From an uncultured bacterium (GTDB taxonomy: Bacteria; Dictyoglomota; Dictyoglomia; Dictyoglomales; Dictyoglomaceae), in contig CALHLF010000004.1 in the NCBI GenBank assembly GCA_938034905.1, positions 1-45,383 of the forward strand: a DNA stretch of 45,383 nt, in the 5' to 3' direction. The notes below the pieces were generated by a model. The model worked only from the letters and a program-made list of their open reading frames with translations, was not told the origin of the DNA and did not search any database. This document shows positions 22,721 to 32,786 of the stretch, piece by piece (within the stretch, counting starts at the first letter, position 1; each line of letters starts with the position of its first letter). The position numbers and the translations under genes were made by a program.

Positions 22721-23967
22721 TTACTTTTCATAAGCACCGATATCATATCCTTTATCTTGAGGTCTTGGTTTACCCTCAAGATCATGATTAGGAGCATTTT
22801 TAGGTGTTCCATTATCTATTGCTGGGCTTTTATCCTGCAGATGGTAATCTCCTTCATTTCCCCAAGCAGATAAGATAAATAAAGGATCTCCATAAATGTT
22901 TCCTTTGCCTAAAGTTTCTATATTTTTAGAAGTATATTGATTACCTTTATATTCAAGTAAGTATTCAGATTTTGGAAGATAAAAAAGATTAAACTCTGCT
23001 AAAAGATCTACAGAATCCCCAATATATAAATGTCAACTCCATATTGAACATACATGAGATAATTTTTACCTAAAAAGTCATCTACGGTTACATTAACTAT
23101 TTCAAATACTGAATTTTTCTTCTCTACTTGGTCAATAACAATTGCTGCCCATGGAGTTTCCTGAGGATTCCCATCTCCCCTTCCATATATCAATGTGTTC
23201 TCAATTTTGCTATTATTTCCCCATATTTTTACTCCATCGCAGGAATTATTTGCAACTATGCATCGATGAATATAAGTATTCTCAGCTTTAGAATCAATTC
23301 CATCCCCATAGTTATGTTCTACAATAGTATCTACTATTTCAATAGGACCATCAGAAGGTTCAATGCCAAATCCATCGGGTCTATCATAGGGTCTACTTGA
23401 GCCATCTCCTCCTTGGTAATAATGTCCACTGTAAGATAATTTACAGTTTTTGATTTTAACATTTTTCCATCCCCCAAAATTACCTAAAGGACCACCTAAG
23501 GCACCAAAGCCACAATATTCTATTTTACAATTTAATATCTCCAAATACTCAACATCCTGAATATTCATTCCAAATTCATCAATATGATGAATATATAGAT
23601 TTTCTAATGTAATATGAGAAGATGGTTTTTCTAAGATTTCAATACCCTCTCTAAACTAAAGAGCATCTCCTTTTATAACGATCCATGCATTTTCCTCTCC
23701 TGATGTAGGGGTGATTATATCATCATCATACTCACTCAGTATATATTCTCCTCCAAGAATGATTAATGTATCCCCTGGTTTAAGTTGTCTTGAGCCAAAG
23801 CCAGGAGTTTTCCATGGCTTTTCAATAGTTCCTGGATTTGAATTATTCCCATTTGTTGCTACATAATATATTCTTCCACTACCTGTGGCATGACTTCCTG
23901 CTAAAATTAAAAGGAATATGGAAAGAAGAATTATAGAAAACTTTAACATTGTTTTCAAAAACCTCAC
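22721..23967 (-). pseudogene. Broken gene for a secreted right-handed beta-helix protein
   Basis: Reading from 23967, a signal peptide (KFSIILLSIFLLILAGS) is followed by YYVATNGNNSNPGTIEKPWK, the DUF1565-like start of parallel beta-helix proteins. An in-frame TAG at 23656-23658 breaks it; the same frame then continues through HITLENLYIHHIDEFGMNIQ and several beta-helix turns to about 23030. There a two-base excess in a TA run shifts the frame; the other frame continues (LLAEFNLFYLPKSEYLL) to SPAIDNG and DIGAYEK and a stop at 22721, the usual end of such surface proteins. A pectate-lyase-like polysaccharide-degrading role is possible. Two independent lesions indicate real decay. Confidence 0.85.
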
Positions 23968-27430: not shown

Positions 27431-28516
27431 ATGAAGGATAGAATAAAGGCAAGATTAAGAGGACATAAAAGGGTTATAGAGCTTGTAGAGGAAAAGCTCA
27501 TAGAGGAGATAGAAAAATCTGCAAGAGCTATTATTTCTGCTTATGAAAATAATAGGAAGGTTATTCTTTTTGGAAATGGCGGAAGCGCAGCAGATGCACA
27601 ACATATCGCAGGTGAGTTGGTGGGAAGGTTTTTGAGGGAGAGAAGATCTCTTCCTGCTATTGCTCTAACTACTAATTCATCAATTATTACTGCAATATCT
27701 AATGATTATGGATATGATATGGTCTTTGAGAGACAGATCGAGTCTTTGGTTCAAGAAAAGGATGTGGTTATAGGAATAAGCACCTCTGGAAGTTCTTCAA
27801 ATGTAATAAAAGCCTTGAAAAAATCGAAGGAATTGGGAGCTATAGTAATTTCCCTTTCTGGAAAAGATGGGGGGAAAATGGCAGAAATTTCTGATATTAA
27901 TTTAACAGTTCCCTTTCATATAACCCCTCATATTCAAGAAGCTCATATAGCTATTGGCCATATCATATGTGATTTAGTTGAAGATTATTTATTCAATTCA
28001 AAGAAGAGAGCGGTCTTTCTCGATAGAGATGGAACTATAAATGAAGACAAGGGATATACATATAAAATAGAGGATTTAGTAATATTACCAAAGGTCGTTG
28101 AGGGACTAAAACTTCTTCAAAAAAAATTTTTATTGATTGTTGTTACAAATCAATCGGGGGTGGAGAGGGGTTATTATACTGAAAAAGATGTAGAAAGATT
28201 TAATAATTATGTTTATTTAGCTTTAGCAAAGGAGGGGGTATATATTGATGATTTCTATTATTGTCCCTATTTAGAAGGAGAATGTAGAAAGCCTAATATC
28301 GGAATGCTTATTCAAGCTCAAAGGGATTGGAATATTGATTTAAGTAAATCCTATTTTATTGGTGATAAAGAATCAGATATTTTGGCTGGAAAAAGAGCAG
28401 GATGTAAAACTATTCTAATTGGGAAGACCTCCTCTGAGATTGTACCTGATTTTTATGCCAAAGACCTTTTGGAAGGTGCAGAGTGGATTCTTTTGATGGA
28501 GAAAAAAAATGAATAA
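27431..28516 (+). CDS. Fused sedoheptulose-7-phosphate isomerase / heptose-bisphosphate phosphatase (GmhA-GmhB)
   Basis: A 361-residue bifunctional enzyme for ADP-heptose synthesis. Residues 1-190 are GmhA (SIS fold: FGNGGSAADAQHIAGELVGR, ISTSGSSSNVI, HIQEAHIAIGHIIC) making D-glycero-D-manno-heptose 7-phosphate. Residues about 193-361 are a HAD phosphatase of the GmhB/HisB-N type with FLDRDGTIN, VVTNQSGV and GDKESDILAG, removing the 7-phosphate-independent group after kinase action. The two are usually separate proteins. The GmhB zinc loop is reduced to CPYLEGECRKP, missing the usual histidine and spacing. It overlaps the kinase gene by 8 bases. Confidence 0.9.
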   Translation: MKDRIKARLRGHKRVIELVEEKLIEEIEKSARAIISAYENNRKVILFGNGGSAADAQHIAGELVGRFLRERRSLPAIALTTNSSIITAISNDYGYDMVFERQIESLVQEKDVVIGISTSGSSSNVIKALKKSKELGAIVISLSGKDGGKMAEISDINLTVPFHITPHIQEAHIAIGHIICDLVEDYLFNSKKRAVFLDRDGTINEDKGYTYKIEDLVILPKVVEGLKLLQKKFLLIVVTNQSGVERGYYTEKDVERFNNYVYLALAKEGVYIDDFYYCPYLEGECRKPNIGMLIQAQRDWNIDLSKSYFIGDKESDILAGKRAGCKTILIGKTSSEIVPDFYAKDLLEGAEWILLMEKKNE

Positions 28517-29522
28517 TAAAAATCTTTTAAAAATCGTAGAGGCTTGGAAAGGGAAGAGAGTAGGAATCTTAGGGGATATAATGTTAGATGAGTATATAAT
28601 AGGGAAAGTATCAAGAATATCTCCTGAAGCGCCAGTTCCTATAGTAGAGGTAGAAGAGGAGTATTCTCTCTTAGGTGGAGCTAGTAATGTAGCAAATAAT
28701 ATAAAAAGTCTTTTAGGAGAACCTATACTTTTTGGAGTAATTGGAAAGGATAGGGGAGGGGAGAAGATAATTAATCTCCTTCGAGAAAAAGGGATTATTA
28801 GTAAACTTTATATAGATAGAAATAGACCCACAACTCAAAAAACAAGAGTTATTGCTTTAAATCAGCAGGTGGTAAGAATTGATAAAGAGGTAAAAGATTT
28901 TATATCTGAAGAGATAGAGGAAATAGTTTTTCAGAATATAGAGGAAAATATTAAAGAAATAGATATATTTATCCTATCAGATTATGCAAAGGGGGTATTA
29001 ACACCTAAGTTGACCTCTGAAGTTATAAACTTGATAAAGAGTAAAAGGAAAAAGGTAATAGTAGATCCGAAGGGAAGAGATTACAGGAAATATAAAGGAG
29101 CAAGTATTATTACCCCAAATGAAAGGGAGGCACAGATTGCTGTTAATATGGAAGAGAATTTTGATCTAATTACCTGTGCTAAGAAATTATGGGATATTAC
29201 TAAAGGAGAAGGAGTTATAATTACTCGAGGAGAGAAGGGAATGTTCCTCTTTGAGCCTAATTCTCAAGTTTTTATTCCCGCCCTCTCTTCTCCAGTAAGA
29301 GATGTTACTGGTGCTGGGGATACTGTAGTGGCAACCCTCTCTTTGGCATTAGCAGGGGGAGGAAATTTATTAGAATCTGCTGTTTTATCCAATTTTTCTG
29401 CCAGTATAACAGTAAAAAAATTGGGAACTGCTACAGTAAGCCCTGATGAACTTATTTCTGTAATTCCTGAAAGTTTAGAAATTAGAGATGGGTGGGTATT
29501 CTTTAAGAAAAATAAAGAGTAG
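28509..29522 (+). CDS. hldA: D-glycero-beta-D-manno-heptose-7-phosphate kinase (HldE N-domain/RfaE1)
   Basis: A 337-residue PfkB-family kinase that phosphorylates heptose 7-phosphate at C1. Diagnostic motifs are GDIMLDEYIIGKVSRISPEA, GGASNVANNIKSL, RPTTQKTRVIALNQQVVRID and the catalytic DVTGAGDTVVATL. In enterobacteria this domain is fused to the nucleotidyltransferase as HldE; here the latter is a separate gene overlapping by 35 bases. Confidence 0.93.
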   Translation: MNNKNLLKIVEAWKGKRVGILGDIMLDEYIIGKVSRISPEAPVPIVEVEEEYSLLGGASNVANNIKSLLGEPILFGVIGKDRGGEKIINLLREKGIISKLYIDRNRPTTQKTRVIALNQQVVRIDKEVKDFISEEIEEIVFQNIEENIKEIDIFILSDYAKGVLTPKLTSEVINLIKSKRKKVIVDPKGRDYRKYKGASIITPNEREAQIAVNMEENFDLITCAKKLWDITKGEGVIITRGEKGMFLFEPNSQVFIPALSSPVRDVTGAGDTVVATLSLALAGGGNLLESAVLSNFSASITVKKLGTATVSPDELISVIPESLEIRDGWVFFKKNKE

Positions 29523-29979
29523 AGAGGAACTTAAGAAGATTGTGGAAAATCTAAAAAGAGAAGGAAAAATCATTGTTTTTACCAATGGATGTTTTGAGAT
29601 TCTTCATCCTGGTCATATTGAGATTTTAGAAAGGGCAAAAAGTTTAGGTGATATTCTTATTGTAGGTATAAATAGTGATAACTCTGTAAAGAAGATTAAG
29701 GGAGAGAAAAAAATAATTCTCAGTGAGGAATCACGCTTAAGGATAATTTCCTCTTTAGAGATGGTGGATTATGTGATTCTCTTTGATGAAGACACTCCTG
29801 AAAATTTGATTGCAGAATTAAAACCAGATATTCATGTAAAGGGTGGAGACTACAAAATAAATAACCTTCCTGAGGCAAAAATTGTGGAGAGTTATGGTGG
29901 AAAAATCTATATTATCCCTCTTCTTAAAGAATTTTCTACAACGAAGATTATTGAAAGAATATTAGAACTATATAAATAA
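29488..29979 (+). CDS. hldC: Heptose-1-phosphate adenylyl/nucleotidyltransferase (HldE C-domain/RfaE2)
   Basis: A 163-residue cytidylyltransferase-fold enzyme with IVFTNGCFEILHPGHIEIL (HxGH motif) and SLGDILIVGINSD; near the C-terminus KEFSTTKIIERI fits the ISTT-like signature. It makes ADP-heptose from heptose 1-phosphate. The ATG at 29488 lies within the kinase gene and has no good ribosome binding site; translation is probably coupled. A start at GTG 29542 would cut a conserved N-terminal helix. The 3' end overlaps the convergent fusion gene by 12 bases. Confidence 0.9.
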   Translation: MGGYSLRKIKSREELKKIVENLKREGKIIVFTNGCFEILHPGHIEILERAKSLGDILIVGINSDNSVKKIKGEKKIILSEESRLRIISSLEMVDYVILFDEDTPENLIAELKPDIHVKGGDYKINNLPEAKIVESYGGKIYIIPLLKEFSTTKIIERILELYK

Positions 29980-32307
29980 TTTAAGTTTTTCCCAAACTTT
30001 GTCCACAGAGATGTTTTTCATACAATCTAAAGTCTCACATACCTTATTTCTTCTCTCCCAAAGACAAGGTTGGCAAGGAAGCTCAGTCTTTACAACTTGA
30101 AAGATATTATTTTCAGGAATAATTTCCTTTGGATTAGTGGGTCCAAATAGGGCAACTAAAGGCTTATTTAAGATAACTCCTAAATGTAATGGTGCAGAAT
30201 CTAAGCAAATCATAGCCTTGCAAAGGTATATGAGGGAAAGAAATTCCTGGAGAGATTTTGGAGCTATAAATATTTCATTGGGAAGTAGATTTCTTAAAGA
30301 GCTTCCAAATTCTTCTTCGTCAGGACCAATAGTTATTATAAAAGGAATATTCTCTCTTTTTAATTTAATACAAAGTTCCTTCCATTTTTCCTTTTCCCAT
30401 CTTCTATCAATACCTCTTTTTATACTCATCTTACTAATTCCCGGATGAATAAGAATAAAATCAAAGGGTTTTAATCCTAATTTATTTAACTCCTTTTCTG
30501 ATGCTTTATTTATTTCCTCAGAGAGAATAATCTTAGGAAGAGAAAACTCCCTCTCAATTCCAAGAGCTTTTACTAATCTATAGTGAACTTTACCCATATA
30601 TTCATCTCGTTTCAATGATGCTTTATGGGTATATAGAAAGCTTAATGGATTTTCTCTATATCCTGCTCTTTCCTTTGCTCCTGTTAGATACATAAATATA
30701 GGTATAAAGGGTGATTTTCCAGAAGAAACAGAAATATCATATTTTTCATTTCTTAATTTAGTTAAAAGTTTAAAAGTTTCTAATAAATCCAACTTGTTCT
30801 TGGGATTAAACTCTTCTACCTCATATCCTGCTATTTTTAAAATTTCCTTCCCTCTTGATTCTGTAATGATTCTTACTTTTCCAAATTTTTCCTTTAAAGC
30901 TTGAATTACTGGCAAAAATAATACTTGATCTCCTAATCCTCCTAAGTTAAAGGCAAGAACCTTTTTTTCTTTTTTATCCTTATTTAAATTTAGAAGAAAA
31001 GAACAGGCAAGCCAAAAGATTATTTGAGGATATGGTCTATACCATATAGTATCTACAAGACCGTGAAATAGTGGTGCAATTATAGAGGATAAAGATGAAA
31101 TACCAATTACCTTTTTTGTAAAATCCCAATTTTTAAAACTTGTGATAAGAGTTTTTATTAAAATATAAACCATTATCAAAAATACTATCAAGGAGAAGAT
31201 GCTTCCTTCTATAGCCAATTGCAAGAATAAATTATAAGAAGCAAGAGCAGTATATTTAGGCTCCATATAAAAGGCATATACTTGGCGAAAAACATCGTTT
31301 CCCAATCCAATTCCTGTGAAGAAGAAGTCTTTGAAAATTTTAAAGGAACTTTTCCATATCATGATTCTTGTAATATTGGAGGTATGTTTCCAAAGGGTAA
31401 ACATAGAAAAGATTCTTGCCCTAAGATAATTTGATGATAATATAGCACCTATTCCTAAAAAGGCGACAATTAAATATATAATAATAAGTTTTTTCCTTAT
31501 CTTTTTATCTCTTTGCCAAAGATATAAAGAGATTCCATAAAATAAAATTATAAGAGATGCTAAAAATCCTAAATATGCCCCTCTAGAATAGGTCCAAATT
31601 ATGGAAAGAGCTGAAATAAATATCGTTAAAAATATAAAGGACTTAAAATAAGAGTAAAAGATTAATGCAGAAAAAAGAAAAGGAAAAACTGAAATCAAAT
31701 ATCCACCTAAAAGATTTGGATTTAAAAGGGTACCGTATACCCTTGTTGCTCCTTCTACAATTAATTCTGGATCTTCCCATCCTGCCAATGGTGGAACCTT
31801 AATAATCCACTGATATACACAATATATTGAAAGAATAAAGGTAGATAAAAGAATAGAAAGAATAGCTTTTTTCTGTTTATATGTATCTTCAAAAATATCC
31901 CTAAATATGAAGAAAATTGAAAAATAGAGTAAGAATTTTGCAAGTCCTTTTAAAGCAGAGGTAAAATAAGGAGAAAAACCTGTAGCATAAATGTTTATTC
32001 CTAAAAGAATAAAAAATAGAAGAGAAAATTTGTCTAAATTTTTAAAAAATCTTCTTTCAGGAGATAAAAAAGTAATTAATACCCATAAGATAAAGGCGAT
32101 AAAAATTAAAATAGCAATTTTTCCAGTGGACAAAAAGGGAAGTAAAAATAGAAAAATGTATAAATAATGTTCTAAAATAAAGTCTAACCACGGAAATATT
32201 AAAGAAGAAGATACAATAGGTTTAAAAATTTTCTTAATTTTTGTTTCAATATTATCTAAGATTTTAAATATCAGACTTTCTTGCCAAAGGGATTCAAGAG
32301 TTTTCAT
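29968..32307 (-). CDS. Fusion of O-antigen ligase/polymerase-like membrane domain and GT9 heptosyltransferase
   Basis: A 779-residue two-part protein. Residues 1-440 hold about a dozen membrane segments and the O-antigen ligase (Wzy_C/WaaL-like) region: GTLLNPNLLGGYLISVFPFL, YSRGAYLGF, GIGLGNDVFR and a late histidine segment FHGLVDTIWYRPYPQ. Residues about 448-779 are a GT9 ADP-heptose:LPS heptosyltransferase: FNLGGLGDQVLFLPVIQALK, ILIHPGIS, CLDSAPLHLGVILNKP, then LFGPTNPKE and a cysteine-rich CQPCLWERR tail. These are normally separate enzymes. It is last in the six-gene minus operon and overlaps the DUF4330 gene by 4 bases. The adjoining ADP-heptose genes supply its likely donor. Confidence 0.88.
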   Translation of the reverse strand: MKTLESLWQESLIFKILDNIETKIKKIFKPIVSSSLIFPWLDFILEHYLYIFLFLLPFLSTGKIAILIFIAFILWVLITFLSPERRFFKNLDKFSLLFFILLGINIYATGFSPYFTSALKGLAKFLLYFSIFFIFRDIFEDTYKQKKAILSILLSTFILSIYCVYQWIIKVPPLAGWEDPELIVEGATRVYGTLLNPNLLGGYLISVFPFLFSALIFYSYFKSFIFLTIFISALSIIWTYSRGAYLGFLASLIILFYGISLYLWQRDKKIRKKLIIIYLIVAFLGIGAILSSNYLRARIFSMFTLWKHTSNITRIMIWKSSFKIFKDFFFTGIGLGNDVFRQVYAFYMEPKYTALASYNLFLQLAIEGSIFSLIVFLIMVYILIKTLITSFKNWDFTKKVIGISSLSSIIAPLFHGLVDTIWYRPYPQIIFWLACSFLLNLNKDKKEKKVLAFNLGGLGDQVLFLPVIQALKEKFGKVRIITESRGKEILKIAGYEVEEFNPKNKLDLLETFKLLTKLRNEKYDISVSSGKSPFIPIFMYLTGAKERAGYRENPLSFLYTHKASLKRDEYMGKVHYRLVKALGIEREFSLPKIILSEEINKASEKELNKLGLKPFDFILIHPGISKMSIKRGIDRRWEKEKWKELCIKLKRENIPFIITIGPDEEEFGSSLRNLLPNEIFIAPKSLQEFLSLIYLCKAMICLDSAPLHLGVILNKPLVALFGPTNPKEIIPENNIFQVVKTELPCQPCLWERRNKVCETLDCMKNISVDKVWEKLKLFI

Positions 32308-32786
32308 TCTTCCTTCACCCTTATTGCAGAGATAACTCCTGTAACATCTGCCTTATAACTTTCAATTGTAATTGACATCCCCACTTTTACCTTTGTACCT
32401 AAAACTATAGAATCAGAAGTTACATATCCCCTTGCAGTAAAGGTGACAAGACAGTCCACATTAAATGGATTATTTATATCGTCAATAGTTTTAAAGCCTC
32501 CTTTAAAATCAGGAATTATAATCTTTTTCTTGTATATTTTTATATCCTTTACTACCACCCATGCAAAGGGTTGATTTTTAATTCTTATAAATGCCTTTTC
32601 TCCTGGAAGTATGAAATTATGATCTACAAGGGGTAAATTTCTTATTATAAAGTCTATTTCTATTTCTCTCTCTTTTCCTCTAACTTCTGCAATAGGTGTT
32701 TTTCCTGATCTGACTAAGAAAAATCCTAATATCGCTAAGATTACTATTACAACTATAAATAAATCCAATATATTAATTTTTCTCAT
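32304..32786 (-). CDS. DUF4330 family membrane-anchored protein
   Basis: A 160-residue protein with one N-terminal membrane segment (NILDLFIVVIVILAILGFFL) and an extracytoplasmic beta-rich domain, matching the layout of DUF4330 proteins. AAGGAG lies 11 bases before the ATG. It sits between an M28 peptidase gene and the ligase-heptosyltransferase fusion gene. Function unknown; the context suggests envelope polysaccharide export or assembly. Confidence 0.7.
   Translation of the reverse strand: MRKINILDLFIVVIVILAILGFFLVRSGKTPIAEVRGKEREIEIDFIIRNLPLVDHNFILPGEKAFIRIKNQPFAWVVVKDIKIYKKKIIIPDFKGGFKTIDDINNPFNVDCLVTFTARGYVTSDSIVLGTKVKVGMSITIESYKADVTGVISAIRVKEE

Follow-up and report, generated by a model that had tools for sequence, protein, structure and literature searches.

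The gene at positions 29968-32307 of a 45,383-nucleotide stretch from an uncultured member of the heat-loving family Dictyoglomaceae (contig CALHLF010000004.1, assembly GCA_938034905.1; the whole stretch is called the window here) encodes a 779-residue protein in which a membrane-embedded Wzy_C ligase/polymerase domain of the IctB type is followed by a complete glycosyltransferase of family 9 (GT9). We propose, with confidence that is about evenly balanced, that this fusion is the polymerase or ligase and a glycosyltransferase for the wall polymer that anchors S-layer homology (SLH) proteins, and thus an envelope-glycan enzyme acting on both sides of the membrane. A previous sequence-only reading had described an O-antigen ligase/polymerase joined to a heptosyltransferase. 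Its coordinates are correct, and the gene lies on the minus strand, which that reading had left unstated.

The reading frame starts with an ATG at 32307 and ends at 29968 with zero internal stops, while the plus strand of the same region is stop-rich. Both Pfam domains score over their cut-offs within this single frame, Wzy_C at residues 228-377 (E 1e-13, 51.6 bits against a cut-off of 31.7) and Glyco_transf_9 at residues 512-750 (E 4e-23, 82.5 bits against 22). The same fusion was found at full length in five of the six other Dictyoglomaceae genomes; no match was obtained in the remaining one (G006, 72% complete). Together with the protein of the window these six homologs represent two genera, share 60-81% identity and are each encoded in one frame, two of them in single-contig genomes. 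A frameshift or assembly error at the junction, which the sequence-only reading had allowed for, is therefore ruled out. A scan of genome contigs yielded a single locus, in the Dictyoglomaceae metagenome-assembled genome RSWP16 (60% identity). The order of a DUF4330 gene followed by the fusion, convergent with hldC-hldA-gmhAB, is identical across both genera, and the fusion is the sole GT9 protein of the window's genome. The Wzy_C-GT9 architecture as such is not unique, as two further fusions of this kind were found in G009 and G176.

Hydropathy of the six homologs gives 11 clear transmembrane (TM) segments, or 12 when the last helix, at about residues 425-440 of the model, is counted. Positive charge is mostly in the loops assigned to the inside, and the long loop of residues 293-369 falls outside. 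An AlphaFold model (pLDDT 85, pTM 0.79) contains the same helices; its last helix ends at about residue 440 and the first strand of the GT-B-type GT9 domain begins at residue 449, in agreement with the junction suggested near residue 445. Because the 12 helices start with the N-terminus inside, the C-terminal GT9 domain is placed in the cytoplasm, and the helix count and the positive-inside loops rule out a GT9 outside the cell.

The best NCBIfam match of the ligase half is TIGR00947 (IctB) and not a model of O-antigen ligases; it aligns to residues 31-438 (E 7e-83) with 279.1 bits, below its equivalog cut-off of 366.4 bits. A PDB profile search with this half returned the O-antigen ligase WaaL (7tpg) as the sole match (E 1e-12), and Foldseek also matched this structure (E 2.4e-6). 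Counted along the 7tpg profile alignment, the two arginines of Cupriavidus WaaL, R191 and R265, are kept as R242 and R314, while Y358 replaces the general-base histidine, H313, in all six fusions. Support for a catalytic histidine and a conserved arginine binding undecaprenyl pyrophosphate in WaaL has been published (PMC10449877). Tyrosine is also found at this position in three cyanobacterial IctB proteins, whereas the relatives in G265, G201 and most clostridial-type loci have histidine. With the N-terminus inside and 12 helices, R242, R314, Y358 and the invariant H415 would fall on the outer face or close to it. The label WaaL-like therefore holds in that this is a true ligase/polymerase-type domain, yet one of the IctB type rather than an ordinary WaaL, and without the general-base histidine.

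Kinship with cyanobacterial proteins extends to both halves. Among 386 genomes scanned, the IctB cut-off was passed in three, which we judge from their scores and genes to be cyanobacteria; the named control Synechococcus elongatus passes it as well, and Dictyoglomaceae rank next after those three at approximately E 1e-80. The NPNL motif of all six fusions has been reported in 114 of 114 cyanobacterial IctB-group proteins and in 0 of 212 other cyanobacterial Wzy/WaaL proteins (PMC4594306). In trees, the ligase half groups with cyanobacterial IctB (19 rows, support 84/98), while a starred node unites the GT9 half with cyanobacterial GT9 (support 100/99). Three cyanobacteria each carry a separate GT9 that matches the fusion (E 1e-33 to 1e-51), and two of these three outscore all other unfused GT9s in the sample. 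The fusion thus brings together, in one chain, counterparts of two proteins that are separate in cyanobacteria.

The second line of evidence comes from DUF4330. The DUF4330 protein of the window has one TM helix and a beta-rich outer domain, and its gene shares four bases with the start of the fusion, an arrangement seen where translation of two genes is coupled. At E 0.001 the family was detected in only 16 of 241 broadly sampled genomes, namely Dictyoglomaceae, cyanobacteria and a few others, and in 118 of 245 genomes of the class to which G201 belongs. In G201 and G167 a Wzy_C gene of the IctB type adjoins the DUF4330 gene. We surveyed such clostridial-type loci in 33 families, one locus per family, 31 of which could be scored by an automatic procedure. 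In 31 of these 31, DUF4330 has an IctB-like gene on its own strand and no more than three genes away; in the other two (L173, L182) DUF4330 was missed by the caller of open reading frames (ORFs), and an IctB-like gene adjoins it. Among 203 background ORFs, the sole IctB-like gene so placed was the fusion itself (0 of 202 others). Five clostridial-type IctB-like proteins were scanned against NCBIfam, and each has TIGR00947 as its top match; nearly all proteins of this group have an NPN motif. A family 4 glycosyltransferase (GT4) occurs in 25 scored loci and the pyruvyltransferase CsaB within 6 kb in nine, and all six of the neighbours of about 510-525 residues that were scanned match the flippase MurJ. 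This is the layout expected for a Wzx/Wzy-type wall-polymer locus. No mention of DUF4330 was found in the literature searched, and a fold search with it gave no match at E <= 0.001 (the best hits, EF-Tu-like barrels with a TM-score of about 0.35, were not used).

Several other features of loci with IctB-like genes were observed. A single 1051-residue protein combines a MurJ flippase with an IctB-like Wzy_C domain (L182:7637-10792, minus strand), a second natural fusion that ties IctB-like proteins to lipid-linked glycan export. In clostridial-type loci CsaB is fused behind GT4 in proteins of 743-746 residues (L154:7632-9863 and L175:3297-5537, both minus strand). A separate ORF of about 170-186 residues lies upstream of IctB-like genes (L173:5490-6050, L159:2830-3390, L164:2201-2743, L063:8671-9189), with no Pfam match in the two scanned; a similar-looking stretch forms an N-terminal extension of the IctB-like protein elsewhere, and residues 1-40 of the fusion are a short form of it.

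The polymer made need not be left as one of unknown type, as it was in the sequence-only reading, since gene neighbourhoods point to an SLH-anchoring secondary cell wall polymer (SCWP). In G201 the cluster is GT4-DUF4330-IctB-like-CsaB-TagA. In Dictyoglomaceae CsaB (TIGR03609, over cut-off) adjoins TagA with MnaA nearby, and six of seven genomes have one SLH match, which in the window's genome is an SLH-coiled-coil protein. The pyruvylated SCWP repeat has been produced in vitro with MnaA, TagA and CsaB (PMC6030368), OmpM of cyanobacteria and of Deinococcus binds pyruvylated SCWP through its SLH domains (PMC10628300), and in Synechocystis repression of slr0688, which suppresses pyruvylation, detaches the outer membrane (PMC9163127). 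Our search of the literature on Dictyoglomus envelope chemistry found nothing usable.

The GT9 half is complete. It retains the donor-binding motif DSAPLH and a GD motif in which D460 occupies the position of the catalytic aspartate of WaaC. Foldseek matched it to 3tov (TM-score 0.84), 1psw (TM-score 0.79), 2h1h and the chloroplast protein PnsB1. Its best NCBIfam match is heptosyltransferase II (E 2e-26), but it falls below the equivalog cut-offs for lipopolysaccharide (LPS) heptosyltransferases I, II and III alike (best TIGR02195, 93.3 against 134.6). Kdo (3-deoxy-D-manno-octulosonic acid) transferase (KdtA, PF04413) was absent from the seven Dictyoglomaceae genomes and the cyanobacterial genomes tested, and canonical LPS heptosylation is therefore unlikely. 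A canonical WaaC/WaaF inner-core enzyme is ruled out on both grounds, and the earlier heptosyltransferase assignment is not borne out in the form it was given. The adjacent ADP-heptose genes named in that reading are confirmed as gmhA-gmhB, hldA and hldC, on the opposite strand and converging with the fusion in a conserved neighbourhood. They provide a donor pathway beside the fusion and support ADP-heptose as the donor for GT9, with heptose as the likely donor sugar. The gene hldC accompanies this GT9 type in both Dictyoglomaceae and cyanobacteria, and in the cyanobacterium G328 a gmhB-like gene starts 16 bases after GT9.

Table 1. Positions of the fusion gene, its parts and related genes (window coordinates unless a locus is given).
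Feature	Position	Strand	Basis
Fusion gene: IctB-type Wzy_C ligase/polymerase + GT9 glycosyltransferase, 779 residues	29968..32307	minus	ORF, Pfam, NCBIfam, homologs, model
Residues 1-445: N-terminal amphipathic helices + 12-TM IctB/WaaL-type half	30973..32307	minus	TIGR00947, 7tpg, topology, model
NPNL, residues 196-199: IctB signature motif, in all six fusions	31711..31722	minus	alignment
R242 (SRG), aligns with R191 of Cupriavidus WaaL	31582..31584	minus	profile alignment
R314, aligns with WaaL R265	31366..31368	minus	profile alignment
Y358, at position of WaaL H313 (HAHN); Tyr in cyanobacterial IctB too	31234..31236	minus	profile alignment
H415 (HGxVDTxWYRP), unchanged across the fusions and cyanobacterial IctB	31063..31065	minus	alignment
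Residues 446-779 + stop: GT9 (GT-B) half, predicted cytoplasmic	29968..30972	minus	Pfam, topology, model, fold
D460 of GT9 GD motif	30928..30930	minus	alignment
D703-H708 (DSAPLH): GT9 donor-binding motif, retained	30184..30201	minus	alignment
DUF4330 protein: one TM helix + beta-rich outer domain; 4-base overlap with fusion start	32304..32786	minus	PF14221, E 9e-28
gmhA-gmhB fusion: sedoheptulose-7-phosphate isomerase + heptose bisphosphate phosphatase	27431..28516	plus	Pfam, NCBIfam
hldA: heptose-7-phosphate kinase	28509..29522	plus	TIGR02198, over cut-off
hldC: heptose-1-phosphate adenylyltransferase; convergent, 12-base overlap with fusion 3' end	29488..29979	plus	TIGR02199, over cut-off
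Cyanobacterial GT9	L039:7014-7985	plus	another cyanobacterial GT9 is at L105:5227-6195

From sequence, fold and gene order we infer the following pathway. The cytoplasmic GT9 would add a sugar, most likely D-glycero-D-manno-heptose from the ADP-heptose of the neighbouring genes, to an SCWP precursor linked to undecaprenyl pyrophosphate, and a flippase of the MurJ/Wzx type would then turn the precursor over. At the outer face the IctB-type half, possibly with the single-pass DUF4330 protein as a partner, would move it from undecaprenyl pyrophosphate to the polymer chain under construction or to the acceptor in the wall. Once complete, the polymer, pyruvylated by CsaB, would be bound through its SLH domain by the one SLH protein of the genome, tethering the outer membrane. 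Both halves would then serve one pathway, and the coupling of an inside to an outside step and the presence of heptose in the product, both suggested by the sequence-only reading, may hold in this form.

Several observations weigh against this proposal. The fusion lies outside the csaB/tagA locus in Dictyoglomaceae, where csaB-tagA is on another contig or region, and the csaB locus is likewise elsewhere in the cyanobacterial genomes; the link to SCWP is therefore carried over from the clostridial-type relatives, of which the one in G201 does lie in a csaB/tagA locus. SCWP repeats are not known to contain heptose. In addition, hldC was absent from the five clostridial-type relatives tested (G201, G167, G042, G187, G265), and a GT9/heptose step need therefore not belong to SCWP synthesis. 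The chemistry may also differ, given the WaaL histidine in most clostridial-type IctB-like proteins and the tyrosine in the fusion and cyanobacterial IctB. The tree of the ligase half has modest support, with long branches elsewhere, and the presence of LpxC in Dictyoglomaceae leaves room for a role in LPS. In the cyanobacteria we looked at, IctB, GT9 and DUF4330 are mutually unlinked, and gene neighbourhoods there lend no support.

LPS is accordingly the main rival, SCWP being the better guess. GT9 could heptosylate a Kdo-less lipid A core to which the ligase half attaches an O-chain, making the protein a heptosyltransferase-WaaL fusion. Dictyoglomaceae have LpxC as well as a cluster resembling lpxD-fabZ-lpxA-lpxB-bamA (apart from LpxC, these names were assigned by reading the sequences), LpxC is found in the cyanobacteria too, and a Kdo-less lipid A is expected in these genomes, which have LpxC without Kdo transferase (G000-G006, G053, G197). 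The WaaL-type fold and the adjacent ADP-heptose genes also fit. However, the classical acceptor is missing, given that no Dictyoglomaceae or cyanobacterial genome tested has PF04413. LpxC is missing from four genomes that do have DUF4330 together with a gene of the Wzy_C/IctB-like kind (G201, G167, G042, G187), which excludes LPS as the general substrate. Another Wzy_C protein of the window's genome carries the HAHN motif and lies beside glycosyltransferases (L097:9372-10481, plus strand, G000 contig 74); it is a candidate for an ordinary O-chain or capsule polymerase and could be the O-chain enzyme instead. Overall we regard an LPS enzyme as unlikely.

Less probable still is a chance fusion of two glycan genes whose products act on different polymers with no mechanistic coupling. 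That the halves are separate and unlinked in cyanobacteria, and that GT9 domains appear from sequence to be joined to other partners elsewhere, would fit this, but the fusion is kept at full length in two genera, and each of its partners corresponds to a protein that all three of the cyanobacteria examined possess. A ligase for protein O-glycosylation resembling PglL, in which GT9 completes a lipid-linked glycan that the ligase half moves to proteins such as the SLH protein, seems improbable to us: the Wzy_C family includes such ligases and there is a weak match to the O-glycosylation ligase model TIGR03097, yet its score is 28.8 against a cut-off of 188.1 and the neighbourhoods of the relatives resemble polymer export loci. 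A retained role in inorganic carbon transport with GT9 as an accessory, as the name of TIGR00947 and the original IctB proposal would have it, is hardly credible given the Wzy_C/WaaL homology with conserved arginines, the DUF4330, MurJ, CsaB and GT4 neighbours of the relatives, conservation in a heterotrophic family with GT9 attached, and later work that found no bicarbonate transport and called the function unknown (PMC9366323).

The SLH-anchoring polymer proposal may extend beyond Dictyoglomaceae. Crop plants have been given IctB as a "carbon transporter", but the relatives and gene neighbours of the fusion suggest that the task of IctB-type proteins is to make a sugar polymer of the cell wall and not to transport carbon. 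Published work lists the function of IctB as unknown (PMC9366323) and leaves its O-antigen-polymerase domain without an explanation (PMC4594306). The GT9 fusion and the almost constant occurrence of IctB-like genes beside DUF4330 in loci for wall polymers offer a testable function, namely envelope glycan assembly and outer-membrane tethering. More tentatively, IctB-type proteins including cyanobacterial IctB may all be polymerases or ligases of pyruvylated SLH-anchoring polymers that work with DUF4330, the diderm fusion adding a dedicated GT9 (heptose) step and the cyanobacterial GT9 later giving rise to PnsB1. The prediction that IctB-type proteins are wall-polymer enzymes working with DUF4330 is the most useful part of this. 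It also gives an unnamed family a predicted role, and the fusion could serve as a handle on outer-membrane anchoring in Dictyoglomota and cyanobacteria.

As for PnsB1, the cyanobacterial GT9 at L105:5227-6195 (minus strand) has this subunit of the chloroplast NADH dehydrogenase-like (NDH) complex as its best PDB match (E 4e-26, compared with E 5e-8 for WaaF), and PnsB1 looks like a repurposed cyanobacterial GT9. A conserved protein of about 160 residues adjoins GT9 in two cyanobacteria (L039:8691-9176, L106:5063-5536) and presumably resembles the NDH assembly factor CRR6, which would be an odd neighbour for a PnsB1 relative. PnsB subunits have been called absent in cyanobacteria in a 2025 structure paper (PMC12170339). 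Elsewhere in the window, adjacent ORFs of 186 and 103 residues (23008-23967, minus strand) look like the pieces of a single beta-helix surface protein whose gene may be broken.

Compared with known systems, the fusion shares its setting with SCWP/S-layer loci (CsaB-TagA-MnaA; Paenibacillus alvei), in that Dictyoglomaceae have CsaB, TagA, MnaA and an SLH protein and clostridial-type genomes have IctB-like and DUF4330 genes within such loci; it differs in lying outside the csaB locus, and GT9 and ADP-heptose genes are foreign to known SCWP loci. The other Wzy_C-GT9 fusions (G009, L040:7956-10079, 707 residues; G176, L118:1431-3776, 781 residues) have the same domain order but lack both an IctB match at E 0.001 and the NPNL motif, and their GT9 halves fall elsewhere in the tree. 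They apparently arose independently, and while Wzy_C-GT9 fusions as a kind already exist, the IctB-type version is new. With WaaC/WaaF (1psw, 2h1h) and the Veillonella parvula GT9 (3tov) the C-terminal half shares the GT-B fold and the GD and DSxxxH motifs, and it differs in its scores below the heptosyltransferase cut-offs, its anchoring to the membrane by fusion and its place in the cyanobacterial GT9/PnsB1 line. The WaaL O-antigen ligase (7tpg; CAZy GT121) resembles the N-terminal half in its 12-TM fold, two conserved arginines and outer-face active site, while the fusion has tyrosine for the HAHN histidine, IctB motifs, a fused GT9 and no Kdo-type core. The fusion resembles the IctB family (TIGR00947, named as a cyanobacterial putative bicarbonate transporter; Wzy/WaaL group one of PMC4594306) in a nearly full-length match of the N-terminal half, the NPNL and HGxVDTxWYRP motifs, the same tyrosine and a sister position in the tree; the fusion is set apart from it by a score below the equivalog cut-off (279 against 366 bits), the C-terminal GT9 and the DUF4330 gene directly upstream.

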